64,000 nucleotides of DNA from a virus. The DNA lies in IMG/VR virus record IMGVR_UViG_3300027759_003961, positions 1-64,000 of that record. One strand, 5' to 3'. Both the position numbers and the translations under genes were made by a program. How positions within the stretch are numbered: the first letter of the stretch is position 1; each line of letters starts with the position of its first letter. Below the pieces are notes generated by a model. It did not search any database. It saw only the letters and a program-made list of their open reading frames with translations, and had not been told where the DNA came from. Below are positions 11,746 to 25,880 of this stretch, one piece after another.

Positions 11746-12378
11746 CTACTTACCATCCACATGCAGTTGACTGCCATTATTAAAACTGGGGCTAAATGGA
11801 CTTTGTGCTACACGGCCACCTTTGCTTTGACTCCAAGCATAGCCAGCACGATGACCTGAACAGTCTTTGGTACATGGTGATCCTAAGAATTCAAGTTCAT
11901 TCAAGTCATCTTTTAAAAATGTATCAGCAAATGCCTTGCATAGTTTTTCTAGTTTGAGATTACGTGTGATTTCTATGTGATACTTTTTACGTATCCGTCC
12001 CTGGCTAGGATCTTGATAGCCAGCATAGACTTTATGAACACCAACTTCGTCAATGAGATCAGAACAGTTAACTCCTTCACGTTCAGCCATGTATTGAGTG
12101 CATGGACTACAAGTTGTAATAATAATGCTACCATCAGGAATAGGACCAAAGCGAGCATAGTAACTGTCAATAGCGGCACGTTCACCGTGAACACGATGGC
12201 CGTCTCGAGTGGGGTAATTGATACCTACTACACAATTGTTATCGGGATCGAGCACAGCGGCTGCTACCATGCCTAGGCCTTGATCTTTTTGTTGACCTTG
12301 AATGACTAGAGAACATAACTCAGCTAGAATACGATCTAACTTGTCATGATTGCGGATTTCAAAGTCTGTGGCTCTCAT
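11746..12378 (-). CDS. cytidine deaminase-like zinc protein, probable virion-associated
   Basis: 210 residues. The zinc-dependent deaminase signature is complete: VHGERAAID (HxE, about residues 83-91) and TTCSPCTQYMAE (CxxC, about 108-119), with the strand AAAVLDPDNNCVVGIN before them. It could deaminate cytosine in nucleotides or nucleic acid. The C-terminal tail CTKDCSGHRAGYAWSQSKGG (about 166-185) is a separate basic Cys/His module that I recall in other phage proteins. The N-terminus MRATDFEIRN resembles the targeting peptides of its neighbours but lacks a clear cleavage site. It overlaps the HNH gene by four bases (ATGA). It is not close to the dCMP deaminases of T4 in length or tail, so a free-nucleotide role is not assured. 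Confidence 0.65.
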   Translation of the reverse strand: MRATDFEIRNHDKLDRILAELCSLVIQGQQKDQGLGMVAAAVLDPDNNCVVGINYPTRDGHRVHGERAAIDSYYARFGPIPDGSIIITTCSPCTQYMAEREGVNCSDLIDEVGVHKVYAGYQDPSQGRIRKKYHIEITRNLKLEKLCKAFADTFLKDDLNELEFLGSPCTKDCSGHRAGYAWSQSKGGRVAQSPFSPSFNNGSQLHVDGK

Positions 12379-12770
12379 TTGTTATATGTTGCTACTTGTT
12401 TACATAGTGTAATAAAGTCAGCATCACTTAAATCTCGTTTTGCTAAGTTTACTACTAATCTAACATATTGAACATTGCCTGGAATATAACCTTTGCTTGA
12501 ATCAATTCGATCTGCACTTGGACTATTTAGATCTTTAGCCGAGCCACTACGACTAAATGGAACTCCAGTTAATGCACATTTCCAACCTTGTTTATTAATA
12601 ATCTCCCATGCCTGCTCTTGGGTAATATTAAACTCTGTGCCAGATTTTGGTGCTGAGTGTTTTCTTCTACGAAAAGCAGCTGCCCATGGACCGTGCATTG
12701 AATTTTTTGAATCATATCCAGGCAACTGTGTTGCAGCATGAGCTTCATTTAGAATTTCTGTAGCTCTCAT
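12375..12770 (-). CDS. HNH-like endonuclease domain protein with capsid-targeting-like N-terminus
   Basis: 131 residues, starting at ATG 12768-12770, which overlaps the upstream stop codon (TGATG). The first nine residues MRATEILNE followed by A fit the T4 internal-protein targeting pattern with a cleavage site after L-N-E. The rest shows an HNH-family layout: a helix QAWEIINKQGWKCALTGVPF (C-x-x-T-G) and then SADRIDSSKGYIPGNVQYV (family SxDRIDxxKGYxxGNVxxV), followed by N-x-x-K (VNLAKRDL). In this family the S-x-D-R-I-D stretch replaces the central H. It could nick or cut DNA after injection. It is translated with the neighbouring probable head proteins. Confidence 0.6.
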   Translation of the reverse strand: MRATEILNEAHAATQLPGYDSKNSMHGPWAAAFRRRKHSAPKSGTEFNITQEQAWEIINKQGWKCALTGVPFSRSGSAKDLNSPSADRIDSSKGYIPGNVQYVRLVVNLAKRDLSDADFITLCKQVATYNK

Positions 12771-14776
12771 CAAGCACCAAGAATTTGTCGAACTTGATTA
12801 ACATAAGCACTGACATCGCTGGTGCCAATTTCGTCTACGTCACCTACATTGTAAGCAACTTCTTCTGCGGCCTGCATGACTTTGTCTGGACCAAACTTCA
12901 TCAACAGGTCTGTGTGGGCAGTCATGATACGATTAAGGATAGCACGTTCTACACCGCTAGTGTCTTGCTCTTCAACTATTTCGGATTTACGATTCACCGT
13001 TGTGTCTGGATTGACCTGTTTTAGTTTGCCCCAGGTTACAGTTTGTTGAATACGCTTGGCCAACTCTTTGGCCACGTCACCATCTTTGTCAACATCAATA
13101 GCCCGTTCAAGTTTTAGTAACAGTGGCTTAATCTGTTCAAGTGTACTACGGTCAACAGTAACACCTTTTTTCTGTAGGGCTGTAATTACATCCTCTGCAC
13201 GATATAATTTAATAGCATTCATAGCTTTATGCCAGGCCATTGCACCAAATGCCGCAACAGGAATTATCATAACACCTAACAATTCTTTATAGAACTGTAA
13301 ATCTGACATGTTGATTAAATCGAGCCCCTCTTCTAATTCTTCCTTAGCAAATGGCAAGTACCAGAACCAGTTTTGAAATCCACCTGGGTTGGTATCGTAG
13401 TCCATGTGCGCACGGTTACGGGCCCCGGACATCATACGAGTAAATTCTCTATGTGCATTGTGTTGTTCTGCAACAGCTTCCAGTGCGTCGTACAGTTGAC
13501 CGGCTTTGAAACTGTCTCTGTGGCGTTCAATACCAGGAGCCATGCGACTGTACACATCGGCCAAGTCGGCATGCAGGTTGCCCGTGTCACCTTCGGTTAC
13601 ACCTGACTTTTGAATCTTATCAGCATAGAACTCGCTACTTGCAACCTTGCCGCCATTCTTCTCAGCATAGACCTTGGCACCTGGATGTGTCTTAAACTTT
13701 ACAACCTTGTTACCGTTATATACTACCCATGAACCGGTAGGATCTGCCTTGGTTTCTTTTATATCTAGTCCGTGTTTTTGTTCTTCCTCTTTCATTACAG
13801 GATTTAGTGTAATCTTATCTGCCTTAGCCTTGTCGCCTTCGCGATACAACTTTTTCTTCCAGTTGTCATGGAAGCGACGGGCATCTTCATAGTAGTCAAA
13901 TGTTTTAACACACTTGCCGGCCAAGCAAACCTCATATGGTTCTACTTTGTCGAAGTCTTGATAACCTTCAAATGTGACTGTATTGGCCGGCAACGCAATC
14001 TTGCTTGTTGGGTGCATGATATATTTGTAAGCTGCGGCTTCGGCACTGTTGGCGCCTTTTTGCTTGGCAATGTTATATAGACCTTGTGGATTTTTAATGT
14101 AGTCAGCAATCAGCTGTCTAACTTGTATTCTCCACTGTTTTTCTGGTGGTAACGGAGCAACGTCTGGACCAATACTAGCAGCATAACCTTCTTCTACATC
14201 TTCATCGTACCAGTCGTCATTATTTTCATTATCAGCATTTTTTTTTTGATCAGCTTCGTAGTAGTTGCGGCCTCGGCCTTTGAGCAGATCTTCCTTGCCA
14301 GGAATCTTTTCTACAGGAACATTGCCGGGAATGCCGCCTTCGTCAACATCTAATCCGCCTTGGTATTTCTTTTGACGATCAAATTTGATACCCATAGCTT
14401 TTTCAAGACTATTAGTTGTGCCTTTGTCTAATTTAGCCAGTGGATCTTTTTCTTTTTCAAACCCACCATACACTCCAGGTTTGGCATGATGTTTAATACC
14501 TGTAGCAGTAGGAGTCACTTGACCTTCGCCAGTTAGTGCACCATAGCCCATGGTCTCGTTGCGTACCATATGATAGCTGTCACGCTCGGCCTTGCACTTT
14601 TGAAATTCTTTCATTAGTGCTTGCTTGGCTTCTGGTGTATCAGCTTTCTTGGCACGAGCAACCAAGTCATCCATCCGCATAGCCAAGTCATCAATACGTC
14701 GTTGTTCTAATTGATCTACTGCGCCTTCTGCAATTCTGCGTTCGTGGTCCGTGTTGAATAAGTCTAGTGCAAACAT
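12770..14776 (-). CDS. large probable virion-internal protein
   Basis: 668 residues, hydrophilic and highly charged, with one hydrophobic segment GVMIIPVAAFGAMAWHKAMN (about residue 510) that could be a membrane helix. The N-terminus (LDLFNTDHERRIAEGAVDQL, then two long helices to about residue 70) is a module I recall in other phage proteins of unknown function. Several (L/I/V)-x-E-G sequences (DVDEGG, DVEEGY, ELEEGLD, GVTEGD) resemble prohead-protease sites and could release several pieces. A small domain with KVEPYEVCLAGKCVKTFDYYEDARRFHDNWKKK occurs near residues 270-305. The frame is intact and sits between other likely head proteins. Function unknown. Confidence 0.6.
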   Translation of the reverse strand: MFALDLFNTDHERRIAEGAVDQLEQRRIDDLAMRMDDLVARAKKADTPEAKQALMKEFQKCKAERDSYHMVRNETMGYGALTGEGQVTPTATGIKHHAKPGVYGGFEKEKDPLAKLDKGTTNSLEKAMGIKFDRQKKYQGGLDVDEGGIPGNVPVEKIPGKEDLLKGRGRNYYEADQKKNADNENNDDWYDEDVEEGYAASIGPDVAPLPPEKQWRIQVRQLIADYIKNPQGLYNIAKQKGANSAEAAAYKYIMHPTSKIALPANTVTFEGYQDFDKVEPYEVCLAGKCVKTFDYYEDARRFHDNWKKKLYREGDKAKADKITLNPVMKEEEQKHGLDIKETKADPTGSWVVYNGNKVVKFKTHPGAKVYAEKNGGKVASSEFYADKIQKSGVTEGDTGNLHADLADVYSRMAPGIERHRDSFKAGQLYDALEAVAEQHNAHREFTRMMSGARNRAHMDYDTNPGGFQNWFWYLPFAKEELEEGLDLINMSDLQFYKELLGVMIIPVAAFGAMAWHKAMNAIKLYRAEDVITALQKKGVTVDRSTLEQIKPLLLKLERAIDVDKDGDVAKELAKRIQQTVTWGKLKQVNPDTTVNRKSEIVEEQDTSGVERAILNRIMTAHTDLLMKFGPDKVMQAAEEVAYNVGDVDEIGTSDVSAYVNQVRQILGA

Positions 14777-14789
14777 TTTTTTATTTTCC

Positions 14790-15458
14790 TTAAGCTTCGT
14801 CTATGTAATCCGCTGCTTCATCACGCCTACGTTGACGAGCGTTAAACATTTCCAAGGCCATCTCAGCCTCATCTAGTGTTTTAAATTTTGTGGGCAAACA
14901 ACGGCCTTTACGATGTATTTCAAAGCCATCTGGTTCATTGCCGTGTACTTCCCATAAGCCACATTCATTGGCAACAGTTTTAACTGTTGTATTTTCTTTC
15001 ATGCTTACACCAGGTTCACCCGCAGGTTGCTCTGAAGGAATCTCACCACTTAGAGCTGCGCCAATTTCGGTGTCTTCATTTTGTTTGGCAACGAGAGTTC
15101 TATCTTGTTTATCTTTGGCCTTGATATCAGTATCGTCGTGCTTCTTGTCTTTGAGATCTGTATCAGTTTTGATTTCATCTGCTATGTTGCTTAGATAATC
15201 AGCAAATGATTTTTTAACCTTGTCTAGAACATCTTCGGCTACAGCAGTTTCATCCAGCTCTTCTGACTCTTCGCACCCACCAACTAGTTTGCCGGCCATT
15301 GGATTCTTAGGATCAGTTTTGGCTGTGAGCACTGCTACTGTTTTGGGTTTAAAAGTAGCACCCAGTTGATTGACACTGCGTTGGTTTTTGTCGAGTCCTT
15401 CTTCAAGGATTCGTAGTCGTTCTACGATCGAATAAATGTCGTTATGGTCGTGCGCCAT
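14790..15458 (-). CDS. hypothetical virion-associated protein, lysine/aspartate-rich
   Basis: 222 residues. The first 40 residues form a helix (IYSIVERLRILEEGLDKNQ), the middle (about 65-150) is low-complexity and very charged with many D-K pairs, and the C-terminus is a compact domain LWEVHGNEPDGFEIHRKGR followed by PTKFKTLDEAEMALEMFNAR. This end domain resembles ones I have seen attached to various phage proteins. Sequences such as LEEGLD and ELDETA could be cleavage sites of a T4 gp21-type protease. It lies three bases after the Dps-like gene and 13 bases before the next gene. A scaffolding or internal-core role is plausible but unproven. Confidence 0.5.
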   Translation of the reverse strand: MAHDHNDIYSIVERLRILEEGLDKNQRSVNQLGATFKPKTVAVLTAKTDPKNPMAGKLVGGCEESEELDETAVAEDVLDKVKKSFADYLSNIADEIKTDTDLKDKKHDDTDIKAKDKQDRTLVAKQNEDTEIGAALSGEIPSEQPAGEPGVSMKENTTVKTVANECGLWEVHGNEPDGFEIHRKGRCLPTKFKTLDEAEMALEMFNARQRRRDEAADYIDEA

Positions 15459-15461
15459 TGA

Positions 15462-15902
15462 TCATGCCCTTGCGTCTTTCAAATAACTCTTCAATTGCCA
15501 TGAATATTTGCCATGACTGCTTTGGCGTTCCGCGGCAAAATTTGCAATGTCTTCACGACCTTCAGCAGTGGCAGCATCAAATACTTGCTTGCTCATGTCA
15601 ATCATGGTCTGTGTATCTGCGAGTAATTCTTGTAACATCAATCGGGCACGAGGAACCTTGATTTGGTCCTGTATTTGTGATAATTCTTGGAAGCGACTTA
15701 GGCTTCCTGGAGCATATTCTTCTGTAGTACGGATATATTCAGCAATGGGATCTACAGCTGAATATGCATCTTCGTAGATTTTTTGAAAAAATTTGTGCAA
15801 CTGTCCAAAGTCTGGACCCTCTACGTCCCAATGAAAATAGTGGGCTTTTAAGTAATAGGCAAATGTACTTGCAAGGTAAGTTTTTAACAAATCAGCTAAC
15901 AT
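15462..15902 (-). CDS. dps: Dps/ferritin-like protein
   Basis: 146 residues, a four-helix Dps-family protein (typical length 150-170). The ferroxidase signature is visible as LKAHYFHWDVEGPDFGQLHKFF (about 18-39, family HWxxxGxxFxxLHxxFxxxY) and DAYSAVDPIAEYIR (about 46-59, family DxxAERIRxLG). Dps oligomers oxidise and store iron and shield DNA. The start overlaps the end of the preceding small gene by one base. Its place inside a block of probable virion proteins raises the possibility that it is packaged, though it lacks a targeting-like N-terminus. It belongs with the superoxide dismutase and ErpA-like genes as iron and redox functions of this phage. Confidence 0.8.
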   Translation of the reverse strand: MLADLLKTYLASTFAYYLKAHYFHWDVEGPDFGQLHKFFQKIYEDAYSAVDPIAEYIRTTEEYAPGSLSRFQELSQIQDQIKVPRARLMLQELLADTQTMIDMSKQVFDAATAEGREDIANFAAERQSSHGKYSWQLKSYLKDARA

Positions 15903-16111
15903 TATTTCTTCCGTTTATATTTTTTGTACTCTGCAGGCGTGTTAGGCGTTGCGTCGTCCGTAGTGTATTTAGTGCCACTAAAGAAACTTCCGCCATTTCT
16001 GCTAATCATGCCGCCCAAGGGCATACTAACAGGCGCTATACTACCGCTACAAGTAGTGCCACTGCTAGCGCCACCATCTTCCGTTAAATTAACAAATTCA
16101 TGCAGTCTCAT
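15902..16111 (-). CDS. small Gly/Ser/Thr-rich protein with capsid-targeting-like N-terminus
   Basis: 69 residues. It begins MRLHEFVNLTED, which fits the T4 internal-protein targeting pattern with a possible cleavage after L-T-E. After that the chain is Gly/Ser/Thr-rich (GGASSGTTCSGSIAPVSMP) and ends in a basic tail YKKYKRKK that could bind DNA. No catalytic motif. It overlaps the upstream gene by 14 bases and the Dps-like gene by one base. A small packaged protein is the best guess. Confidence 0.5.
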   Translation of the reverse strand: MRLHEFVNLTEDGGASSGTTCSGSIAPVSMPLGGMISRNGGSFFSGTKYTTDDATPNTPAEYKKYKRKK

Positions 16112-16409: not shown

Positions 16410-16598
16410 TTATTTGAGTTCTTTGGTTGATCCAATGTGCCAATCTTCTACTCCGTATTGGGCTTTCATTAGTCTGCGAGCATCTTGCATGTTGGCCGCT
16501 GTTACTGTAACATCGATATAGCCCACATAGTTGGGTTGTTGGATACGCACAGGTGCAGTCCAGAGTTTATATTTTGGGTATATGTCTCGAGCTCTCAT
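16410..16598 (-). CDS. small hypothetical protein, internal-protein-like N-terminus
   Basis: 62 residues from ATG 16596-16598, which overlaps the upstream stop codon (ATGA). The opening MRARDIYPKYK follows the M-R-x-x-(D/E)-(I/L/F) pattern of its neighbours but has no L/I-x-E cleavage site. The rest (GYIDVTVTAANMQDARRLM KAQYG) looks like a small beta-alpha-beta domain of the kind found in phage proteins with YxVxxxxxxARxL. Function unknown. Confidence 0.45.
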   Translation of the reverse strand: MRARDIYPKYKLWTAPVRIQQPNYVGYIDVTVTAANMQDARRLMKAQYGVEDWHIGSTKELK

Positions 16599-18052
16599 TG
16601 ACCTGTCCATTTAGCAAGCATACTGGCCATACTGGTATACATGCCGGTACCACGGCGGCCACTGCGCATACTGTGAACACCGGGTTTCACAGGAAATGTG
16701 TATCTTGTCCAGTCTTTGTCTTGATCTATAATTTCATCCGTCGGCCTAGGTTGATATTGAGAGGTACGTTCCATGTTGTAACCTTTAACTTCGACACCAG
16801 GGATACTGTTCAACATCAACCACATGCGTTGTCCGTGCCGGGTCTGGGTATCACCAGCTTCTATAGTAAGTTTCAATATGCTCAGGGCAATGCCATACAG
16901 GGCTTTGCCCAATCCACGACTGCGGTATTGAGGATTGACAGCCACGGTACTAATTCTCCAGGCATCAGTCTTATCGCGGGTATAAAATAAATCAAGTTCT
17001 GCGGCTAAGGTATCGCCATCAAAGATCATGATTTCCAACTCTTCTGGGCCTGTCTTGCCTACAGCATAGGTAAACCCTGCACCTCCGGGCAACTCTTTTT
17101 TCTTTACCGCATACTTGGGTGGAACAAGAGTATCGGCATCGCCAAAATCACCTTGTGGTATGCGGGCTATTTCTTTTACTAAATGTTTTGCAGGATCAAA
17201 CTTATTACCTGCCATGTAATCAATAATCTGTTGATACTTGTGATCACCGAGCCATCCAGGTTGATTTAATTTGCGTTTTACAATAGCCTTAAACTCAGGA
17301 CGCTCACGCCAATTCCACGAGTCACCGTTTAGTGGAGTGACAATGCTAAATCCTGGAGTATTTGGGTTGCCACTGTGGTCTGTAATTTTGAATGCTTTAC
17401 CATATAAAGAATCAAAATCTAAGTGTTGGCGTCGCTGACTTTCGTCCAGCTCTGTTTCCCATACATTTTGACTAGGACGATGCTTACTCCAAAACCCAGC
17501 ACCGGCATCAGTTTGTTGACCACTACGCCGTATTTGATATCCTAGACTTTTTACATAGTCATACATGATGGCAGCAATACCTTGCCCACGATAACGTTCA
17601 TCTACTTCTAAATCTTGTGGCAACAATGTATCGCCATCAATTGAAAACAACACATGCCCTAATTCTTTACCGTTGCTAGTAGCCGTAACCTGTGCTACTG
17701 TATTTTCGTCGTCATTGTCGTCAACATACTCATCATCTTTTACTTTTTCAAAAGATAAATCTATACCATCGCGGTTGGCCCGATGAATTCTAGGATTTTG
17801 GTATTCAAACAGGTCTGGATCAAAATCATCAGCACTGATAAAATATGTAGTGCCATCGCGGTGCTGTAGTTGCACAGCATCATCTTCGCTTTCAACTTGA
17901 GCAATACTCCACCCAAGGCTGTTTAACACATGCTCAATTTGTGGCTGTCGATCCGTGGCGTTCCACCAGCGATTGGCCAGAACTACTAACTGATCTGGAA
18001 CATCATCGTTGTCGTCACGATCCGGACTAGGAGCAAATTCTCGTAATCTCAT
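16595..18052 (-). CDS. double GNAT-like acetyltransferase, probable virion-associated
   Basis: 485 residues from ATG 18050-18052 (ATGA overlap with the upstream gene). GNAT enzymes move an acetyl group from acetyl-CoA to an amine. Two acetyl-CoA-binding blocks are visible: LEVDERYRGQGIAAIMYDYV (about residues 143-162, Q/R-x-x-G-x-G/A) and VAVNPQYRSRGLGKALYGIA (about 368-387). Between them is a linker with D/N-rich low complexity. The N-terminus MRLREFAPSPDRDD resembles the targeting peptides of neighbours without a clear cleavage site. Embedded among likely packaged proteins, it could acetylate a host target soon after infection, but substrate and packaging are inferred. Confidence 0.65.
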   Translation of the reverse strand: MRLREFAPSPDRDDNDDVPDQLVVLANRWWNATDRQPQIEHVLNSLGWSIAQVESEDDAVQLQHRDGTTYFISADDFDPDLFEYQNPRIHRANRDGIDLSFEKVKDDEYVDDNDDENTVAQVTATSNGKELGHVLFSIDGDTLLPQDLEVDERYRGQGIAAIMYDYVKSLGYQIRRSGQQTDAGAGFWSKHRPSQNVWETELDESQRRQHLDFDSLYGKAFKITDHSGNPNTPGFSIVTPLNGDSWNWRERPEFKAIVKRKLNQPGWLGDHKYQQIIDYMAGNKFDPAKHLVKEIARIPQGDFGDADTLVPPKYAVKKKELPGGAGFTYAVGKTGPEELEIMIFDGDTLAAELDLFYTRDKTDAWRISTVAVNPQYRSRGLGKALYGIALSILKLTIEAGDTQTRHGQRMWLMLNSIPGVEVKGYNMERTSQYQPRPTDEIIDQDKDWTRYTFPVKPGVHSMRSGRRGTGMYTSMASMLAKWTGQ

Positions 18053-18528
18053 AGGTATCCTACCCAAGCCGGCCCTGTATATCCTTGTGGGAATGCCTTT
18101 AGTGCTTGCGTGGTTCTATGCCCACCTTCCCATAACTCATAGCCATCGGGTTTTTTCACAACAATAATAGGCTCTCCACTAACACCTTGTTGTTGTATCT
18201 TGGCAGCCTGTGTGGCATGTCGTTCGGCATCCCTAGGCACCTGATTAGGATTTTTAGAGCCGCCTTCTCTTTTACGAATCTGTTCCTGTGTGCGAGGAGT
18301 AAAGACGTCTATGGTAATAGGCAAGCGTTCTAACCGCCATTGCCGGATTGGGTATTCTTGTAAAATATGCTGTACGTGAGCTTTTTTATCTTCAAGCTCC
18401 ATGTTATCAGGAATTTTACTGTAGAGAGCGTCTTTGACCACATAGTCAGGCCAGTGTTTTGGCACCATGCTTCTTATTAGTCGCCATGCACCACCTTGAT
18501 ACTCAACTAGTAATTCTTTAATTTTCAT
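18049..18528 (-). CDS. ParB/sulfiredoxin-like domain protein with capsid-targeting-like N-terminus
   Basis: 159 residues. The first nine residues MKIKELLVE followed by YQGG fit a capsid-targeting peptide with cleavage after L-V-E. The C-terminal 50 residues carry a ParB N-domain/Srx-like motif: GEPIIVVKKPDGYELWEGGHRTTQAL, where strand IIVV, strand YELWEG and G-H-R are the ParB nucleotide-binding (GxHR) signature. ParB-like domains hydrolyse CTP or act as nucleases or kinases in phage and toxin proteins. It overlaps both neighbours by four bases. A modest basic central part could bind DNA. Confidence 0.6.
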   Translation of the reverse strand: MKIKELLVEYQGGAWRLIRSMVPKHWPDYVVKDALYSKIPDNMELEDKKAHVQHILQEYPIRQWRLERLPITIDVFTPRTQEQIRKREGGSKNPNQVPRDAERHATQAAKIQQQGVSGEPIIVVKKPDGYELWEGGHRTTQALKAFPQGYTGPAWVGYL

Positions 18529-19235
18529 TTGTTGTCCAAGGCCTGAAATAGTTTGACAAGATCTTGAGCTTCTACACCAAATACCAACTTTAATTGAGAG
18601 CCAGCATACAAATATGCTCCAACTTCTTCTTCAACGTGGTCAGTATAATCTAGTTTGGTAGTCAAAATCTTTTTAATAGTTTTAACCGCAGGATCTTGTG
18701 CATGATCCGTTAGCAGTTGATCTGCGTTTGTTTTAAATTTGCTGTCTAAGTAATACTTAGCATGAAACATTTCGTGCTTTACTGTGTCTGCATCTTTGCT
18801 GCCGACACCAATGATACAAAACTTCTTCATACCTTTAGTAGCTTTTTCTACTGCTGTAACCATGACTTGTTCGGCTGTAGATAATTTGCCAGCAGACTTT
18901 AGCCAAGAACGAAAAGCACGATCGGGAATATTAAATCCATCCCAGAACTTAAAATAGTCTACGTCACCATTTTGATTCATCCACTGGTCTAAAAAATCAA
19001 CCAGTGTGACTTGTCCGCTTTTACCACTGTAGTGATTGCCGTCATAGTATTCGGCCACGCGAAAGAAACTGCGAGCCAGATTTGGAATAGTTTTATATTG
19101 TAGTAAGACACAGCCGTCAACAGGCCGACTGACCTTTATGTCACGACTAGTAAATTGAGGCTGTTTTTTATTATCAAAGTAACTCTTTACTGTTGCTTTG
19201 GTCCAGCGTTCAATAAGGAATTCTTCAGCTCTCAT
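18525..19235 (-). CDS. HExxH metallopeptidase-like protein with capsid-targeting-like N-terminus
   Basis: 236 residues. MRAEEFLIE followed by RWTK fits a T4-type capsid-targeting sequence with cleavage after L-I-E. The motif TVKHEMFHAKYYLD (about residues 152-165) contains HEMFH, a zinc-binding HExxH, and VEEEVGAYLY about 45 residues later offers a third ligand glutamate as in gluzincins. The N-terminal half has no recognised domain. It would be a small zinc protease carried in the head. The gene overlaps the next by four bases and starts one base after the preceding stop. Confidence 0.6.
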   Translation of the reverse strand: MRAEEFLIERWTKATVKSYFDNKKQPQFTSRDIKVSRPVDGCVLLQYKTIPNLARSFFRVAEYYDGNHYSGKSGQVTLVDFLDQWMNQNGDVDYFKFWDGFNIPDRAFRSWLKSAGKLSTAEQVMVTAVEKATKGMKKFCIIGVGSKDADTVKHEMFHAKYYLDSKFKTNADQLLTDHAQDPAVKTIKKILTTKLDYTDHVEEEVGAYLYAGSQLKLVFGVEAQDLVKLFQALDNK

Positions 19236-20684
19236 TTAGCAGTTCCAACGACGGCGTGCCTTGCAAATAGCCTTGTCTGGAGTTTTAGCACATGAAATGT
19301 TGTGCATTTTCATTTGTCCACGTGATCGTGAGCAATAGCTCTTGCGACGCTTGCTGGCCTTACTACCCTTCTTTAACTTGCTAGGCTTGGTAGTTACAGC
19401 AGTCTTTAACTTTGAACCTGGATTCTCTCTACGATAAGCGTTCACAGCTTTCTGACTCATGCCAGCAGTACGATCTTTCTTGTTGACCTTTTGCCAATCT
19501 TCGTTCAGTTGCGAAGTTACCGCAAATGCATACAGCTCGTCTTCTGTTAATGATTCTAAATCATCCCACACTACTTCGGAATCTACACCATTTTGAGCAG
19601 CAATTTGATCAATGATTGATTCAATAAGATCAAACTCTTCGGCTAGTTCGTTGGATTCGTGAACTGCAGGAGCATTAGGTTGTGCATTCCAAGTGTCGGC
19701 CCAATTACTGGCTTGAGCTTTTAACCATTTTTCAGTGCTTTGGCCTTCATCGCGAGCACTTAAACTAAATGCAAGCTGATCTTGGTCGTTGTAGTATTTG
19801 CGTATGCCACGATTGTCATCTGTTTGATAACCAAACCATTCTTCGTTGCCATTAGGATCAACCAACCAGGCTTCGCCTGAGTAGTAGTCGTTGGCAGTTT
19901 CGATAAATTGCCATCCTTTGTAACGATAAGTTTCAGTCTGATCATCGGAAGTTACTTCAACATCATTGCCATCACCTTGTTCATGTATAGTTTGCCCAGA
20001 CTTAGTTTTGTTTGGTCCCTGTCCTCGATTTTTTGTTTTTAGCAATGCTTCTACAGCACCAAGTTGGTGTGCATATAGGTCGCCAAGACGATCAATATCC
20101 ATGTCACCGCCGCCGTCCCATACCAATGGGTCCAAGAGGTTGACTTCAAACGAAGTTAACTTTACTCCTAGATTAGCAAACTTTTTAAGTTGGCCATATA
20201 TTTCTTGGACCCTTGCAGAATTTCTAATCATTTTAGAAAGATCTTGCCACTCTGGATCTCTGGTGTATTCATGAGTGTCTTGGATATCAGGGCTTAGAAA
20301 TACATCGTTAAACACATTTAACTCACGCAAGGCATTTTCCCAGTCAGCTCCGTCACGGATAAAACTTTCCGCCACACTTTCATTAGGCACACAGTTACGC
20401 ACCTGTCCACCATTCTTGCCTTTTTTAGTGCCTTCTGCATGTTTGCCTGGCCAGCAACGAGTATAACCGTTTGAGTCTTTTTGACCCTTTTTGATTTCAT
20501 TGATATTGCCGTGTGTTTTGCACATGCCGCAGTCTTCACACACCATTTCCATCTCTGTACTTTCATTGTGCTTTTTCCTACCAGCACAATGAGCCCGTTG
20601 ACTAAACCCTTTAGGATGGCTACAGTTGATACTGCTCTTGTATTTTTGACTCCACTTTTCAGTGATAAATTCATAGGCTTTCAT
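19236..20684 (-). CDS. Cys-rich basic virion-internal protein with capsid-targeting-like N-terminus
   Basis: 482 residues. It opens MKAYEFITE then KWSQKYKSS, an excellent match to the T4 internal-protein targeting peptide with cleavage after I-T-E. Residues 18-110 hold two Cys/His clusters (NCSHPKGFSQRAHCAGRKKH and CEDCGMCKTHG) that look like zinc modules. The last 50 residues are very basic and Cys-containing (KASKRRKSYCSRSRGQMKMH, ending ARRRWNC), similar to a short domain I recall at the C-termini of several phage proteins. Internal LAEEFDLIESI and QTETYRYKGWQFIE strands suggest further small domains. The basic ends suggest DNA binding inside the capsid. Confidence 0.6.
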   Translation of the reverse strand: MKAYEFITEKWSQKYKSSINCSHPKGFSQRAHCAGRKKHNESTEMEMVCEDCGMCKTHGNINEIKKGQKDSNGYTRCWPGKHAEGTKKGKNGGQVRNCVPNESVAESFIRDGADWENALRELNVFNDVFLSPDIQDTHEYTRDPEWQDLSKMIRNSARVQEIYGQLKKFANLGVKLTSFEVNLLDPLVWDGGGDMDIDRLGDLYAHQLGAVEALLKTKNRGQGPNKTKSGQTIHEQGDGNDVEVTSDDQTETYRYKGWQFIETANDYYSGEAWLVDPNGNEEWFGYQTDDNRGIRKYYNDQDQLAFSLSARDEGQSTEKWLKAQASNWADTWNAQPNAPAVHESNELAEEFDLIESIIDQIAAQNGVDSEVVWDDLESLTEDELYAFAVTSQLNEDWQKVNKKDRTAGMSQKAVNAYRRENPGSKLKTAVTTKPSKLKKGSKASKRRKSYCSRSRGQMKMHNISCAKTPDKAICKARRRWNC

Positions 20685-23600
20685 TCTTTGTGTTTCCTTT
20701 TCTGTCCTCTACGCATATTTAACTGCCAACGTGCCAGTTGTCCTTTACGACCTTTACTGTGTGATGCCTTTTCTAATTCTGCCATTGTGGCACCTTTGGG
20801 TATTCCGTGACGCTGACTATCGCCCGGACGTCCTGGCCCTTTGCCGTCAGCAAAGTTTTCTTCTAAACTGGATACGCTACGCAAATATATGTCTGCATCT
20901 GGATATCTAGTTTCAAGATTATCTTGCACTACATTGGCTTGGTTGTAACTGGCATGTGTCATTCTATGAATAACCTGACCAGTTATACGATTTACAAATT
21001 CCCAATCACGCGGAATGTCTGTAGCATCTTGTGGTGTGTCAAAGTTTTGAGCAACATCCGTTTCCACATCCTGCACACCTGGGGCATGGCCCGATGCGCG
21101 GTAGCCATAGTCTTCAGTTTCGTTAGGCAAGTTATTTTGTTTCAACCAACTTCCGTAAACCTGATCGGCTTCCTGCGGAGTCTGTGCATAGAATCGGTCT
21201 ACGACCTTGTAGGTGGTACGGCTCACTATGTCATAGTTGTAGTCTATTTTCTTGGTTGTGATACGCTTGGCCAACTTGGCTCTTGGAGTCATTGTAGCTG
21301 GATCTTCGTAAGGACGAACCTGGAATCCAATGCCTTGATCCACATACTTGTCATACACAGCATCAGCCACTTCGCCTTTGCTCTTGCCTTTGACTATTTC
21401 AAGTGTAGCACCGGTTTTAACATCATACACTTCCCAGTCTTGTTCACCCATATTGACCAACTGATATTCGCCTGTGTCTAATGCTTCACGACCGTACTTG
21501 GCCCATACTCGCATTTTAACTTCACTTTCTGGATAGCCATTCCATTCTGCTCCAGGAACTGGTTCCCATACACCGTCGACATTTTGATATAGTCTAAAAC
21601 GTTGATTCATTTTCTTTTCTGTGCCAATGGTCTTTTCAGCCCACTTTTTCTTGAGTTGTTCTGCTGTGAGCTCACCTGCGGCAAACTGACTGAACAGGGC
21701 CAACTGACTGTCACCTTCGGGCGCTACCAACTTGTACAGTTTCTTAGCATACTCTCTGCGTTCTTCATTGGGGTTGGCCGCAAGACTCATGGCTCTAGCA
21801 TAACGCAACATGGTGCTGGATAGTTTTTCAGGGTCAGCATTTTCCTCAGCCAACCAGTCACCGCCAGCACTACGGAATTCAATGTAGCCATTTTGTATAT
21901 GTGCTGATGTGTACTTGCCTTCGCCTACACCTTTTTGTATCTCTCTATGTGCCAGTTCGAGCAGGCCACTTTGCATCAATTTGATTGCACCCATAGGATC
22001 AGCACGGCCACCTTTGATGTTTTCACGGAACTTGCTCATGGCTGACTTGGTGTAGGTGTTGGCCTCACGACCAAACGATTGTAACACGTATTCGTCACCC
22101 AGGAACAGGATCAGTTTCAAGTAGTCAACGTCACCACCTTTGAACGGCACACTAACGCCCATGTGTAGACCGGTTGAGTTGTTGGTATAACAGTTGCCCT
22201 CGTCTGAATTGGCCCAGTCACATACCGCTTCTAGTTTTTCTAATGCTTGTTCTAGTGGTAAAGGCGGACTTACAATTTCCAAGCCAAAGTCTTCACTGTC
22301 GTCGGGTTGTAAACTAGAATCAGGCTCTAAAATCCACACGCCTTCCTTGCGTGTGGCACTGTGATAGTTGCTACTTACTTTAACCGGCATGTCTACAGCA
22401 CTTTGTAAACTGTCGCCAATTTCATCCCATTCACGACTTCCGCCGTTACTACCACTGCCAGTCATGTAGGGCCAGTCTAGATCATAATTGCTAGCGATAT
22501 CACTCATCCAGCGTAGGCCTGCATCATCAAAAAATCCTGAATCGTCATCTATCTGATAATTATCTCGGAAGTCATCTAGAGCGGCATCCCAGTTTGCACC
22601 TTGTTTACGAACTTCATCTTCTATTAGCTCGTCTAGCAGGCCTTCAGCTTCCTCTTGTGCATCTAAATACTGTTGATACTGTGGATTGGCTTCTGCGTAT
22701 GTTTGTTGTTCTTTACTTGACGTAAATTTAGGAGCCCGCTCACCGGCATTGATAATTGCATTTATTTTATCGTCGGTTAAATCCAATAATGCCAACTGTT
22801 TTTGTATTTCATTGTCAAGATCCCAATCACCTTCGTCAACCATAACTTTACGGATTAAATCTTCAGCTTCGTTGCTAAAGTCTTTGATCATTTGCTCATC
22901 GTACCACTCGTAATATTGTTCGTCTAGGCCTTCTTGCAAGGCACGTTCTTGACGTGGGCTCAAGCCACCATAGTCACCACCTTGGAAAAAGTCTATGATT
23001 TGTTGGATGCTACGGCAACGTTCGTCCATGTCATAGTCAGGTTCCATGTCGTAGTCACTGTCGTCACCGCTGTTGGTGTCACGGAAGATCATCTCTGCTT
23101 CAAAGCCGGCACGTATGCCCTGTGCTTCTGGACTCTGGGCCCACTTTTGCAAGGCCGACGGGCTCATTTTAACTTCGTCTAGTTGCGTAGACTCGGCTAC
23201 ATTGTAGGTAGGATCTGTCTTTTGACGTTTCATACTCTTGGGCTGATTAGGATCAACAGGGTCAATATCGGTAGTAGTGAGTCCTAAGTTTTCTAAATCG
23301 TTGATATACTGGTGTTCTGTATCTTCGTCGCCAAATGATATAATAGTACTAGGAGGACCTTTGCCAAATTGGCTTTTGTCTGCTGCTTTTAGATTACTAA
23401 TGTTCTTGCCTAACTTGTACCAGTCATACATGTCGCTGACATCTACACGTATAGTACCTTTAGGCATGGTAGGTTTAGTTTCTGGGCCTGGCGGATTATC
23501 TGGGCTGTAATCCTCGTCGGCTATACCTTTTTTAAATCGGGCCAATTCTAAATTTAATTTCTCAAACAGACCATTTGCTCGGGCAACCTGTGGAACGCCT

Positions 23601-24904
23601 TGCCGGTTGGTTTTTAAATTTAACTTGTTGGCTTCTTTGCCCAGTTGTCCGGGGCGAATGTCTTGTGTGAGTGCCATGCTGAATCGCGGATCTCGAGCCT
23701 GCTTCTTTGTGGGGATATATCCACTTGCGCCTTCCTCTAGTTCAGTTTGACTGGCATCAAACAATTCTGGGTGCAAGCGACCATAGTCACGCATGAGTAT
23801 GCCAGCACGGGCATTAGCTTCGTTTTCATATGGTGATCCAGTTTCTCCAGCATCACCAGGCACTGTTTCACGCTCGTGTTGATGTTTGTGTGTGAGTTCA
23901 TGTGCCACAGTACGGAGCACATCCATAATATGACGTTGGCCAAATGCTACCTCCAGCAAATGTGCATCATTGATATAACGACCAAAAGTCTTATTCACCA
24001 CTGACCACTGTGGGTCACGACGCAACTTGACTGTGGGCATTGATTTGATTTTTAATTCTGCTACACAAAATTTGATAAAGTCTTTTAGTATTTGTTCATC
24101 TGATAACGACGGGGTGTCAACTTCGGTTGTTTGTTCAACCACCGAGTTGGCTTCTTCGTGTTTGAATCCATATGTAAACACACTATGCGGTTGCCGACGT
24201 TCACGTAAACTCAGTTCTTGATCTTTGGCTGCATTACGAGCATCATATAGTTCTTTAATCTTGCCTTGACTGCGTAACATTTTAAATGCTAGGTTTTCAG
24301 GACCAAATTCGCCGTGCTGTTCAAGTCCAGTCTGTCGCATCCGTTTAATCTTTTCAGCCATACGGGTCATGCGAGTTAAACTGCCCGACGCAATGGCCTT
24401 TTCAATTTGATGCCCTACAGTTTTAAATTTATTCTCAGTGCTAGTATCATCCACCACTGACTTAACACGACGCGGAACTTGAATCCAATCATCGGTTAAT
24501 ACGCTGTAGATACCTTGACTAATGTGTGGTTGATCTGCAGATTGAACATATAGTTCAACATCGTAACCGCCAATTTTAATATTGTGTTGTTCGTTATACT
24601 GAAACTTCTTAGCATCAAATAACTCGCGATATACTTCATCCGTGGGCATTTTGACCACTAGGTGTAGATCAATATCTGAGTTGGGAGTATATGTGTAGGC
24701 TGCATTTGACCCACTGATGGTTATGTCTTGCAAGTCAAGATCTATCACGCCTAGAAACTCGCGAAAATCTTCAGCTATTAAAAGTAGCTGGGCCTTGACT
24801 TCCGGCTTTAAATGCTCAGTAGAGTCCCACAGTCTAGGATTCAAGCGATCATTGAACTTGACTGCGTCGTCAAGGTTGTAGGAATCTAGTTCTAAAATAT
24901 TCAT
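20681..24904 (-). CDS. giant multi-domain protein: nucleotidyltransferase, HExxH and amidoligase-like domains
   Basis: 1407 residues from ATG 24902-24904; the longer frame to 25069 would cross the terminator. Domains in order: a polymerase-beta-like nucleotidyltransferase (GSN at 65, SDIDLHLV at 76-83), a zinc-protease-like segment VAHELTHKHQHE (HExxH at 335-339) with ENEANA about 22 residues later, and an amidoligase-like region (GFEAEM at 600-605, EIVSPP at 876-881, GLHMGVS at 912-918, the family GxExE, E(L/I)VSPP and GxHxHxS blocks). A short tyrosine/aspartate-rich repeat region follows, and the tail FADGKGPGRPGDSQRHGIPK with basic residues resembles DNA-binding tails of other phage proteins. 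A CTAAATA motif lies seven bases before the ATG. It is probably a virion component processed into pieces. Confidence 0.7.
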   Translation of the reverse strand: MNILELDSYNLDDAVKFNDRLNPRLWDSTEHLKPEVKAQLLLIAEDFREFLGVIDLDLQDITISGSNAAYTYTPNSDIDLHLVVKMPTDEVYRELFDAKKFQYNEQHNIKIGGYDVELYVQSADQPHISQGIYSVLTDDWIQVPRRVKSVVDDTSTENKFKTVGHQIEKAIASGSLTRMTRMAEKIKRMRQTGLEQHGEFGPENLAFKMLRSQGKIKELYDARNAAKDQELSLRERRQPHSVFTYGFKHEEANSVVEQTTEVDTPSLSDEQILKDFIKFCVAELKIKSMPTVKLRRDPQWSVVNKTFGRYINDAHLLEVAFGQRHIMDVLRTVAHELTHKHQHERETVPGDAGETGSPYENEANARAGILMRDYGRLHPELFDASQTELEEGASGYIPTKKQARDPRFSMALTQDIRPGQLGKEANKLNLKTNRQGVPQVARANGLFEKLNLELARFKKGIADEDYSPDNPPGPETKPTMPKGTIRVDVSDMYDWYKLGKNISNLKAADKSQFGKGPPSTIISFGDEDTEHQYINDLENLGLTTTDIDPVDPNQPKSMKRQKTDPTYNVAESTQLDEVKMSPSALQKWAQSPEAQGIRAGFEAEMIFRDTNSGDDSDYDMEPDYDMDERCRSIQQIIDFFQGGDYGGLSPRQERALQEGLDEQYYEWYDEQMIKDFSNEAEDLIRKVMVDEGDWDLDNEIQKQLALLDLTDDKINAIINAGERAPKFTSSKEQQTYAEANPQYQQYLDAQEEAEGLLDELIEDEVRKQGANWDAALDDFRDNYQIDDDSGFFDDAGLRWMSDIASNYDLDWPYMTGSGSNGGSREWDEIGDSLQSAVDMPVKVSSNYHSATRKEGVWILEPDSSLQPDDSEDFGLEIVSPPLPLEQALEKLEAVCDWANSDEGNCYTNNSTGLHMGVSVPFKGGDVDYLKLILFLGDEYVLQSFGREANTYTKSAMSKFRENIKGGRADPMGAIKLMQSGLLELAHREIQKGVGEGKYTSAHIQNGYIEFRSAGGDWLAEENADPEKLSSTMLRYARAMSLAANPNEERREYAKKLYKLVAPEGDSQLALFSQFAAGELTAEQLKKKWAEKTIGTEKKMNQRFRLYQNVDGVWEPVPGAEWNGYPESEVKMRVWAKYGREALDTGEYQLVNMGEQDWEVYDVKTGATLEIVKGKSKGEVADAVYDKYVDQGIGFQVRPYEDPATMTPRAKLAKRITTKKIDYNYDIVSRTTYKVVDRFYAQTPQEADQVYGSWLKQNNLPNETEDYGYRASGHAPGVQDVETDVAQNFDTPQDATDIPRDWEFVNRITGQVIHRMTHASYNQANVVQDNLETRYPDADIYLRSVSSLEENFADGKGPGRPGDSQRHGIPKGATMAELEKASHSKGRKGQLARWQLNMRRGQKRKHKE

Positions 24905-24921
24905 TGTGTAATATTTAGCGC

Positions 24922-24956
24922 ACAACAAAAAGCCGCTGTCAAAGCGGCTCTTGTTA
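24922..24956 (-). terminator. rho-independent terminator
   Basis: On the minus strand GAGCCGCT-TTGAC-AGCGGCTT is followed by a run of T, giving a 7-8 bp G+C-rich stem and U-tract. It lies directly after the glycosyltransferase gene at 24972-25880 and before the giant protein gene, so it separates two transcription units. Confidence 0.85.
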
Positions 24957-24971
24957 TGTTGGGTTATTATG

Positions 24972-25880
24972 TTACTTCTTTTTCTTTTTACTACTGGCCA
25001 ATACTGTAGCTTCTGCTGGTTTAGCATCAACCGGTGCAGCCACTCCTGTTGGACCACCCAAAGCCACATTATTGGTTAGGGCTAGTGAATGCAGATCTTT
25101 GTACAGTTGATCTTGAGTCTGATAGTCAAACACATAAGTGCCGGTGTGCTTGAGTAGCACACGCTTGTCTACCCAAATCTTGCCGCCTAAGTCTCTGTAA
25201 TTTTCGCAGAATGTCCAGTCCTCTGAATAGTAACGATTTTCACGCACTGCTGTGTCAAAATAAGTTTTCATGTAAGGGTTTAATTCTGGCGGTAGACCAA
25301 TGTCGTTTGCAAATGGTTTTGTAGCAGGATGTGCGTTGAGCTTTTCAAATACCGCACGTTTGATCAACATAAAACCTGTGCCGGTTTTTGATACTTCCTG
25401 TAGGCCATCTGGGCCTTCTTCAGCACCATCAAAGCCGTTTACACACCATTTGACTGGCAGACTTTTCATTGGGTATAATCCACCAATAACGTCCACGTCA
25501 CGATTCAACATGACCAATAAATGCCAAGGTTCCCAACCAATGTCAGCATCAATAAACATCAAATGAGTTGATTCTTTATTGTTAAGGAATTTGGCAGTGA
25601 GCGTGTTTCTAGCTCTGCTAATAAGACTTTCATTGGTCATGGTTTCCATGGTCCAATCAATGCCCAACTGGCGGCAGGTGTTGGCCCATTTGATATAGCT
25701 CATAAAGCATGACTCTGTAAGCATACCACCGTAGCATGGCATACAAATATGCACACGAGTGGTCTTCAAAAAGTCAATGTTTACTTGGATTTGTTGTTGT
25801 CCTGGCTGTGGTTGCTCAGTAACGTCGTTTACCTTTGCACCAGGTGTTTGTGTTGTGGGTGTTGCTTGGTTTTCAGCCAT
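24972..25880 (-). CDS. family 2-like glycosyltransferase (GT-A fold)
   Basis: 302 residues. The nucleotide-sugar-binding region shows MTNESLISRARNTLTAKFLN (about 84-103) and then HLMFIDADIGWEPWHLL (about 109-125), where I-D-A-D is the metal-binding DxD of GT-A enzymes. DVDVIGGLYPMKSLPVKW and TGTGFMLIKRAVFEKL are further blocks seen in phage and bacterial transferases of this type. The N-terminal 30 residues are proline/glutamine-rich and the C-terminus is alanine/lysine-rich. It ends in a strong terminator at 24922-24956 and its start follows AGAGGAATCC. Acceptor unknown; DNA, virion protein or surface glycan are all possible. Confidence 0.7.
   Translation of the reverse strand: MAENQATPTTQTPGAKVNDVTEQPQPGQQQIQVNIDFLKTTRVHICMPCYGGMLTESCFMSYIKWANTCRQLGIDWTMETMTNESLISRARNTLTAKFLNNKESTHLMFIDADIGWEPWHLLVMLNRDVDVIGGLYPMKSLPVKWCVNGFDGAEEGPDGLQEVSKTGTGFMLIKRAVFEKLNAHPATKPFANDIGLPPELNPYMKTYFDTAVRENRYYSEDWTFCENYRDLGGKIWVDKRVLLKHTGTYVFDYQTQDQLYKDLHSLALTNNVALGGPTGVAAPVDAKPAEATVLASSKKKKK

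Follow-up and report, generated by a model that had tools for sequence, protein, structure and literature searches.

Few enzymes are known to be injected into the host by phages of the T4 type. In the part of PMC5694885 that describes T4 Alt, gp21 cuts this protein at ITE-6 and LTE-619 and 63 C-terminal residues are lost, and the passage on IPIII in PMC9026906 states that only its first 10 residues are needed for packaging. Polyvalent proteins, in the partial account taken from PMC5512222, are multi-domain phage proteins that are packed in the head and injected, and they are processed by MPTase domains (P1 DdrB). The phage deaminase described here resembles the T4 internal proteins and Alt in its short M-[KR]-x-x-[DE]-F start, in its L-x-E site and in the occurrence of a gp21-type protease and gp23 in the long records of its relatives. 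The loss of a C-terminal piece, which that portion of PMC5694885 places at LTE-619 in Alt, is predicted for the deaminase as well. It differs from the T4 proteins in that the cargo is a deaminase and the piece removed is a portable domain common to many proteins, and its packaging and cleavage are read here from sequence. The notion of a multi-domain protein carried in the head is common to it and the polyvalent proteins: our polypeptide has a deaminase and a tail domain that may be a second effector, and one relative (L284) has a third module. Its seams, however, look prohead-protease-like. In the titles and abstract openings of open-licence papers, among the matches listed, we found no report of a virion-packaged deaminase or of a prohead-protease polyprotein.

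The window, a stretch of 64,000 nucleotides, is one part of an IMG/VR virus record of 83,058 bases (~83 kb). Its zinc deaminase gene occupies 11746-12378 on the minus strand and encodes 210 residues from an ATG, comprising a targeting-like start, a deaminase domain, a seam and a tail domain. Pfam recognizes the cytidine/deoxycytidylate deaminase domain PF00383 (9.7e-09, 35.5 bits against a cut-off of 25), and the protein carries H64-G-E66, C90-S-P-C93 and C105 followed by the tail, CTKDCSGHRAGYAW...SFNNGSQLHVDGK; a preliminary description of this DNA, which had called the frame a zinc deaminase from its HGE and CSPC, was right on that point. Nor is this a chance frame, since relatives are encoded on 104 IMG/VR stretches by a whole-protein query and on 157 by a profile of the deaminase core (80 stretches were retained from each search). 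The family had no match, and so no cultured member, among 50,697 phage records at E up to 0.01, and two short patterns of the core returned 382 stretches and 0 relatives from a prokaryote genome collection. A divergent query from L080 recovered only itself. Within the collections searched, the family is found on viral contigs only. Five loci from the whole-protein IMG/VR search lie on contigs of 317-347 kb, and the phage group is that of giant, or jumbo, T4-like phages known from environmental DNA only. By fold, BFVD holds three members from uncultured Caudovirales (A0A6J5L023, A0A6J7WI66 and A0A6J5KPZ7; 31-49% identity), named merely as RibD or cytidine/deoxycytidylate deaminase domain proteins. 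One of them lies inside an 840-aa model and another is 153 aa long, and the latter points to relatives that may be tail-less.

In an alignment of 28 deaminases, the window copy and 27 relatives, H64, E66, C93 and C105 are invariant and C90 varies, so the zinc cysteine pair is probably C93/C105 and not that of the CSPC motif. The AlphaFold2 model has a deaminase fold across residues 11-155 (11914-12348, minus strand), with H64, C93 and C105 as predicted zinc ligands and E66 as the predicted proton shuttle; pLDDT falls below 50 at residues 1-6, 156-167 and 170-172. PADLOC, run on three proteins, returned no match.

The first eight residues of the deaminase, MRATDFEI (12355-12378, minus strand), match a capsid-targeting-like motif and may direct the protein to the head. 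The preliminary description made no mention of this start. T4 IPIII begins MKTYQEFIAE and IPI begins MKTFKEF. We counted the targeting motif, a short one, at in-frame methionines up to residue 60 of each open frame, in distinct contexts and with frames open at the 5' end left out. In 37 of 50 deaminase ORFs (48 of 50 in a relaxed form) M[KR]xx[DE][FIL] lies near the start, as it does in 31 of 49 other ORFs with the tail domain, against 173 of the 1332 remaining ORFs of the same loci. A looser form applied to the whole genome of one relative was found in only 15/425 ORFs and at 9/1740 internal methionines, and some of the ORF matches are due to chance. Several deaminase members begin MLLSDF, MILADF or MQ[LI]SDF, with no K/R, and at the N-terminus of the family the targeting-like segment is not followed by a conserved L-x-E.

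The tail mini-domain (residues 162-210, CTxDCSGHxAGYxW...SFxxG; 11749-11895, minus strand) recurs in other proteins of phage contigs and in bacterial proteins. A zinc ribbon was considered for it and is ruled out, the only conserved Cys/His in the 28-row alignment being C169, C173 and H176 and the domain being portable. A DNA pattern of its motif, made so that no arginine may follow the His, drew 70 further IMG/VR stretches; some encode tiny proteins, with little beyond MKAEEILKE/GLMYKGYPCTKDCSGH... (a slash marks the predicted cut here and below), others multi-domain proteins and others export-like ones. Prokaryote genomes gave 86 matching stretches, 80 of which were examined, and one of these (L349) resembles a phage copy. 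These bacterial copies (L301-L380) belong to export-like proteins of Alphaproteobacteria, xanthomonads, Patescibacteria and others. A hydrophobic 15-mer, scored from the first Met by crude hydropathy and not by signal-peptide prediction, lies upstream of the domain in 70/80 bacterial copies, in 1/50 deaminases and, among other viral-contig copies, in 1/33 with a seam and 9/22 without one; the same 80 bacterial copies have the seam in 4 cases and a targeting-like start in none (0/80). Bacterial copies thus stand mostly behind a hydrophobic, export-like segment, and most phage copies behind L-x-E-type sites. Modelled alone, the domain reaches a pLDDT of 96. Against solved structures its best sequence match was at E 0.91 and no fold match reached a VIA Z of 2 among 10 chains, and five tail-domain proteins had no Pfam match at E up to 0.01. 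The chimeric L026 copy is absent from the tail alignment, as is L281, and L002 is represented there by the window copy.

Between the two domains lies a predicted prohead-protease seam, L159-N160-E161/L162 (11896-11904, minus strand), in which L159, E161 and L162 are invariant in 28/28 sequences; L159-x-E161 sits in the stretch of low pLDDT, a linker predicted to be disordered. The tail is present in all 81 deaminase loci inspected and in 16/16 further ones viewed (of the 80 kept). Counted over distinct contexts, as were the starts and the hydropathy, and with deaminase contexts chosen by their carrying the tail motif, [LIVM]xE directly precedes the tail in 50/50 deaminase contexts (5.7 expected) and in 33/55 others (5.5 expected), one of which, L081, is a truncated deaminase. 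A test that located seams at BLAST ends was set aside as proof: a small bacterial control gave 4/81 at the same offset, which makes the signal partly an alignment-end artefact, and dividing the proteins by targeting-like start failed to separate it. We used instead a test in which motif anchors were placed in eleven modules and [LIVF]xE was sought 0-4 residues upstream. It was found in 124 of 149 distinct phage contexts (15.7 expected), a result that is biased apart from the tail motif because the other anchors were picked after examples had been seen. For the tail motif itself, phage loci gave 39/53 (5.8 expected) against 2/47 in bacterial loci (4.7 expected), the seam being absent in 14/53 phage contexts. 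In L284, an extra module of ~100 residues is placed exactly between deaminase and tail, with LDE before it and LNE after it. A 584-aa ORF (L119) has two similar repeat domains after the tail domain, each behind an LDE/LTGVKKYHDL seam.

The major capsid protein of these phages calibrates L-x-E as a seam, since in 12/12 gp23 sequences it is followed at once by [NAS]A[ST]xG[SA]T, at the point at which the propeptide is expected to stop (for example KKYLKE/NASSGST) and at which the cut itself is inferred; for 11 of the 12 the pattern was also seen in a separate inspection. With partial matches counted, an S77 (gp21-type) protease is present in 12 and gp23 in 13 of 20 records searched, and both occur together in 7/12 deaminase-bearing records (G000-G011), which are all seven of those of at least 197 kb. 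Neither the protease nor gp23 was seen in the 83-kb record of the window. Further PF07068 matches in two records (G014 and G018) are ORFs of ~137 aa that cover only the first ~40 positions of the gp23 model.

The surroundings of the gene were counted over 78 loci (L004-L081), many of them truncated. A DNA polymerase lies within eight genes downstream of the deaminase in 74 of these and a small gene, g86, within the same distance in 69; a Dps-like gene is found within six genes upstream in 35/78. Of the 72 loci that show an upstream gene, 35 have a large mosaic gene in the directly adjoining upstream position. In the window the upstream mosaic protein, g668 (12770-14776, minus strand), has homologues of greatly varying length, up to 1,978 aa. 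Farther upstream come g222 (14790-15458, minus strand), whose homologues adjoin Dps and g668 in relatives, and a Dps/ferritin-like protein (15462-15902, minus strand; PF00210, 1.6e-20). A small protein at 15902-16111 (minus strand), MRLHEFVNLTE/DGG..., resembles capsid-targeted proteins by its N-terminus and its relatives. It and the latter (L067, L033 and L075) are proteins of 62-70 aa with a targeting-like start, which in the relatives is followed by E/NASxGxT; this resembles the post-seam sequence of gp23, YLKE/NASSGST, in the same phage group. Three genes within 18049-20684 (minus strand) have N-termini of the same look, MKIKELLVE, MRAEEFLIE and MKAYEFITE/KWSQKYK, with DUF6321 in the third. 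GNAT acetyltransferase domains and DUF6321 are encoded in the same block (16595-18067, 19236-20684 and 20681-25069, minus strand), as is a protein that combines an amidoligase with a nucleotidyltransferase. The interval between deaminase and g86 varies in relatives (L010, L016 and L020), its ~350-aa occupant in L010 being a SPASM/radical-SAM protein. A bS21 gene is present in 5/10 records searched and was considered as a link to the lake phages treated in the relevant portion of PMC9723584.

The slot directly upstream of the deaminase is held in the window by an HNH/EndoVII-like protein (12375-12770, minus strand) of 131 aa from an ATG, with the start MRATEILNE/A; the program's ORF list begins it at a TTG, at 12773, and the ATG gives 12770. 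It overlaps the deaminase gene in the bases ATGA, which contain its stop and the deaminase start codon; both genes and the four-base overlap given in the preliminary description are real, as are the HNH-like character of the neighbour and its MRATEILNEA start. The protein goes on to read ADRIDSSKGY...NVQ...N, matches PHROG endonuclease families (phrog_3322 at 3.2e-21 and a second family at 7.3e-18) and has matches in 206 phage records. The proposal that deaminase and nuclease are coupled did not survive comparison: BLASTP at E up to 1e-5 found 0 homologues of the HNH protein in the 78 other loci, and an HNH-deaminase module is thereby rejected. Among 16 loci viewed, the ORF that directly precedes the deaminase begins in a targeting-like way in 8; in 4 it is the mosaic gene, and in the other 4 something else; five of the eight targeting-like cases begin MR[YF]xEILE/ACWxGY. 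Because the upstream neighbour differs across loci and is an HNH homologue in none, the pairing is local, and we infer that the HNH protein fills a variable slot as cargo in its own right and is not an obligate partner of the deaminase.

We propose, with a probability of roughly 55%, that the protein is carried inside the head of a T4-type jumbo phage, as cargo comparable to the T4 internal proteins and Alt, is processed by the prohead protease and enters the host with the DNA. Docking of the deaminase in the prohead core would be the task of its N-terminal segment, M-[KR]-x-x-[DE]-F. The gp21-type protease would then cut after E161 in L-N-E/L, as the invariance of this site in a linker predicted to be disordered suggests, to leave a 161-residue zinc deaminase and a 49-residue mini-domain, and both pieces would be ejected into the host along with the DNA. 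In the cell, the enzyme would hydrolytically deaminate an amino-substituted base, a chemistry indicated by the deaminase fold and by an H-x-E / C / C site that is intact in 28/28 aligned sequences. Our first guess at the substrate would be a free nucleotide or related small molecule, since RibD, guanosine deaminases and nucleoside deaminases, which are among the nearest relatives, use such compounds and the domain is not basic. The head-borne deaminase of the preliminary description gains indirect support from the targeting-like start, from an invariant L-x-E seam ahead of a portable domain of other targeting-like phage proteins, and from the gp21-type protease and gp23 in the long records of relatives. 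Such a deaminase is a reasonable and now better grounded proposal, which the coupled nuclease is not.

Alternatively, the protein could be a nucleotide enzyme of the ordinary intracellular kind, of the dCMP type or similar, that is made after infection and carries its N-terminal and linker motifs incidentally; we consider this reading rather unlikely. It draws on an unrooted tree of 24 rows, in which the family, a single clade (100/100) on a very long branch (3.6), falls on the dCMP side of a split at 93/92 (not starred), and on the DNA polymerase downstream in most loci. A second, canonical deaminase was found in only one (G001) of ten deaminase-bearing records searched (G000-G009), so the family could be the sole deaminase elsewhere. 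The dCMP rows, however, do not form one group in that tree. Phage dCMP deaminases (T4 cd, 1vq2; S-TIM5, 4p9c) share the superfamily and fold (Foldseek 3.7e-04 and 2.1e-04) but carry PCxxC, where the nine family rows compared have PC-x11-C (the spacing is longer in member L059), and the T4 enzyme scores only 0.064 in the PDB profile search against 3.4e-07 for RibD. Canonical deaminases from two jumbo records, L195 and L197, join a phage dCMP enzyme in the tree, unlike the family. Clustering with dCMP deaminases, which the preliminary description named among the findings that would count against it, receives a mixed answer: the family falls on the dCMP side of the split, but as a clade of its own, and profile and fold rank RibD first. 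With so long a branch, any affinity read from the tree is tentative. An incidental origin of the motifs would also leave the invariant LxE seam and the portable tail without explanation.

RibD is, distantly, the nearest described family: profile and fold rank it first (2hxv; Foldseek 1.9e-07, VIA Z 15.8), although the tree does not unite them. A riboflavin-pathway role, in which the protein would act as the deaminase half of RibD on flavin precursors during infection, would fit the match of 27/28 members to TIGR00326 at E up to 0.01 and the long zinc-cysteine spacing (PC-x11-C here, PC-x8-C in RibD), yet we regard it as very improbable. On that model the window copy reaches 25.2 bits against a curated equivalog cut-off of 156.35; the H-x-G-[KR]-[TQ]-P-P-C stretch between the zinc cysteines of four RibD rows is missing from the family; a constrained clade with RibD has a p-AU of 0.04; and the RibD reductase domain (PF01872), fused or separate, was found in 0/12 records searched, some of them fragments. 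An anti-phage dCTP deaminase model is matched by 3/28 members. Head cargo aimed at nucleic acid, whether host RNA/DNA or the DNA of a competing phage, was the proposal of the preliminary description and appears distinctly unlikely to us. In fold the protein lies about equally near to RibD and to TadA, the latter with TadA-derived enzymes in ssDNA-bound structures included, VIA placing TadA and guanosine deaminase in a tie with RibD at Z ~15, with a difference of less than 1 Z unit. A clade with TadA is nevertheless disfavoured (p-AU 0.018), there is no recognised nucleic-acid-binding domain, the tail being a separate module, and the composition of residues 1-161 (20 K+R against 24 D+E) implies no basic surface and gives no sign of nucleic-acid binding.

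Beyond this one gene, it is possible, at somewhat less than even odds, that T4-like jumbo phages have a general cargo system, in which interchangeable effector modules follow one another behind a capsid-targeting start, each opening at an [LIVF]-x-E/ seam, in polyproteins that the prohead protease would divide into single effectors for injection. This wider pattern of protease seams is a more interesting lead than the verdict on the deaminase itself. Under such a system the tail domain would be an effector common to these phages and to bacterial exported proteins, and the protease that clears the scaffold would double as a polyprotein-processing enzyme. If head cargo is the right reading of the gene, a base-deaminating enzyme would join the injected enzymes of T4-type phages, and it would be, to our knowledge, the first virion-injected deaminase. 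Most genes of uncultured jumbo phages have no assigned function, and a targeting-like start together with L-x-E seams would, if true, provide a readable rule by which their injected effectors could be spotted.
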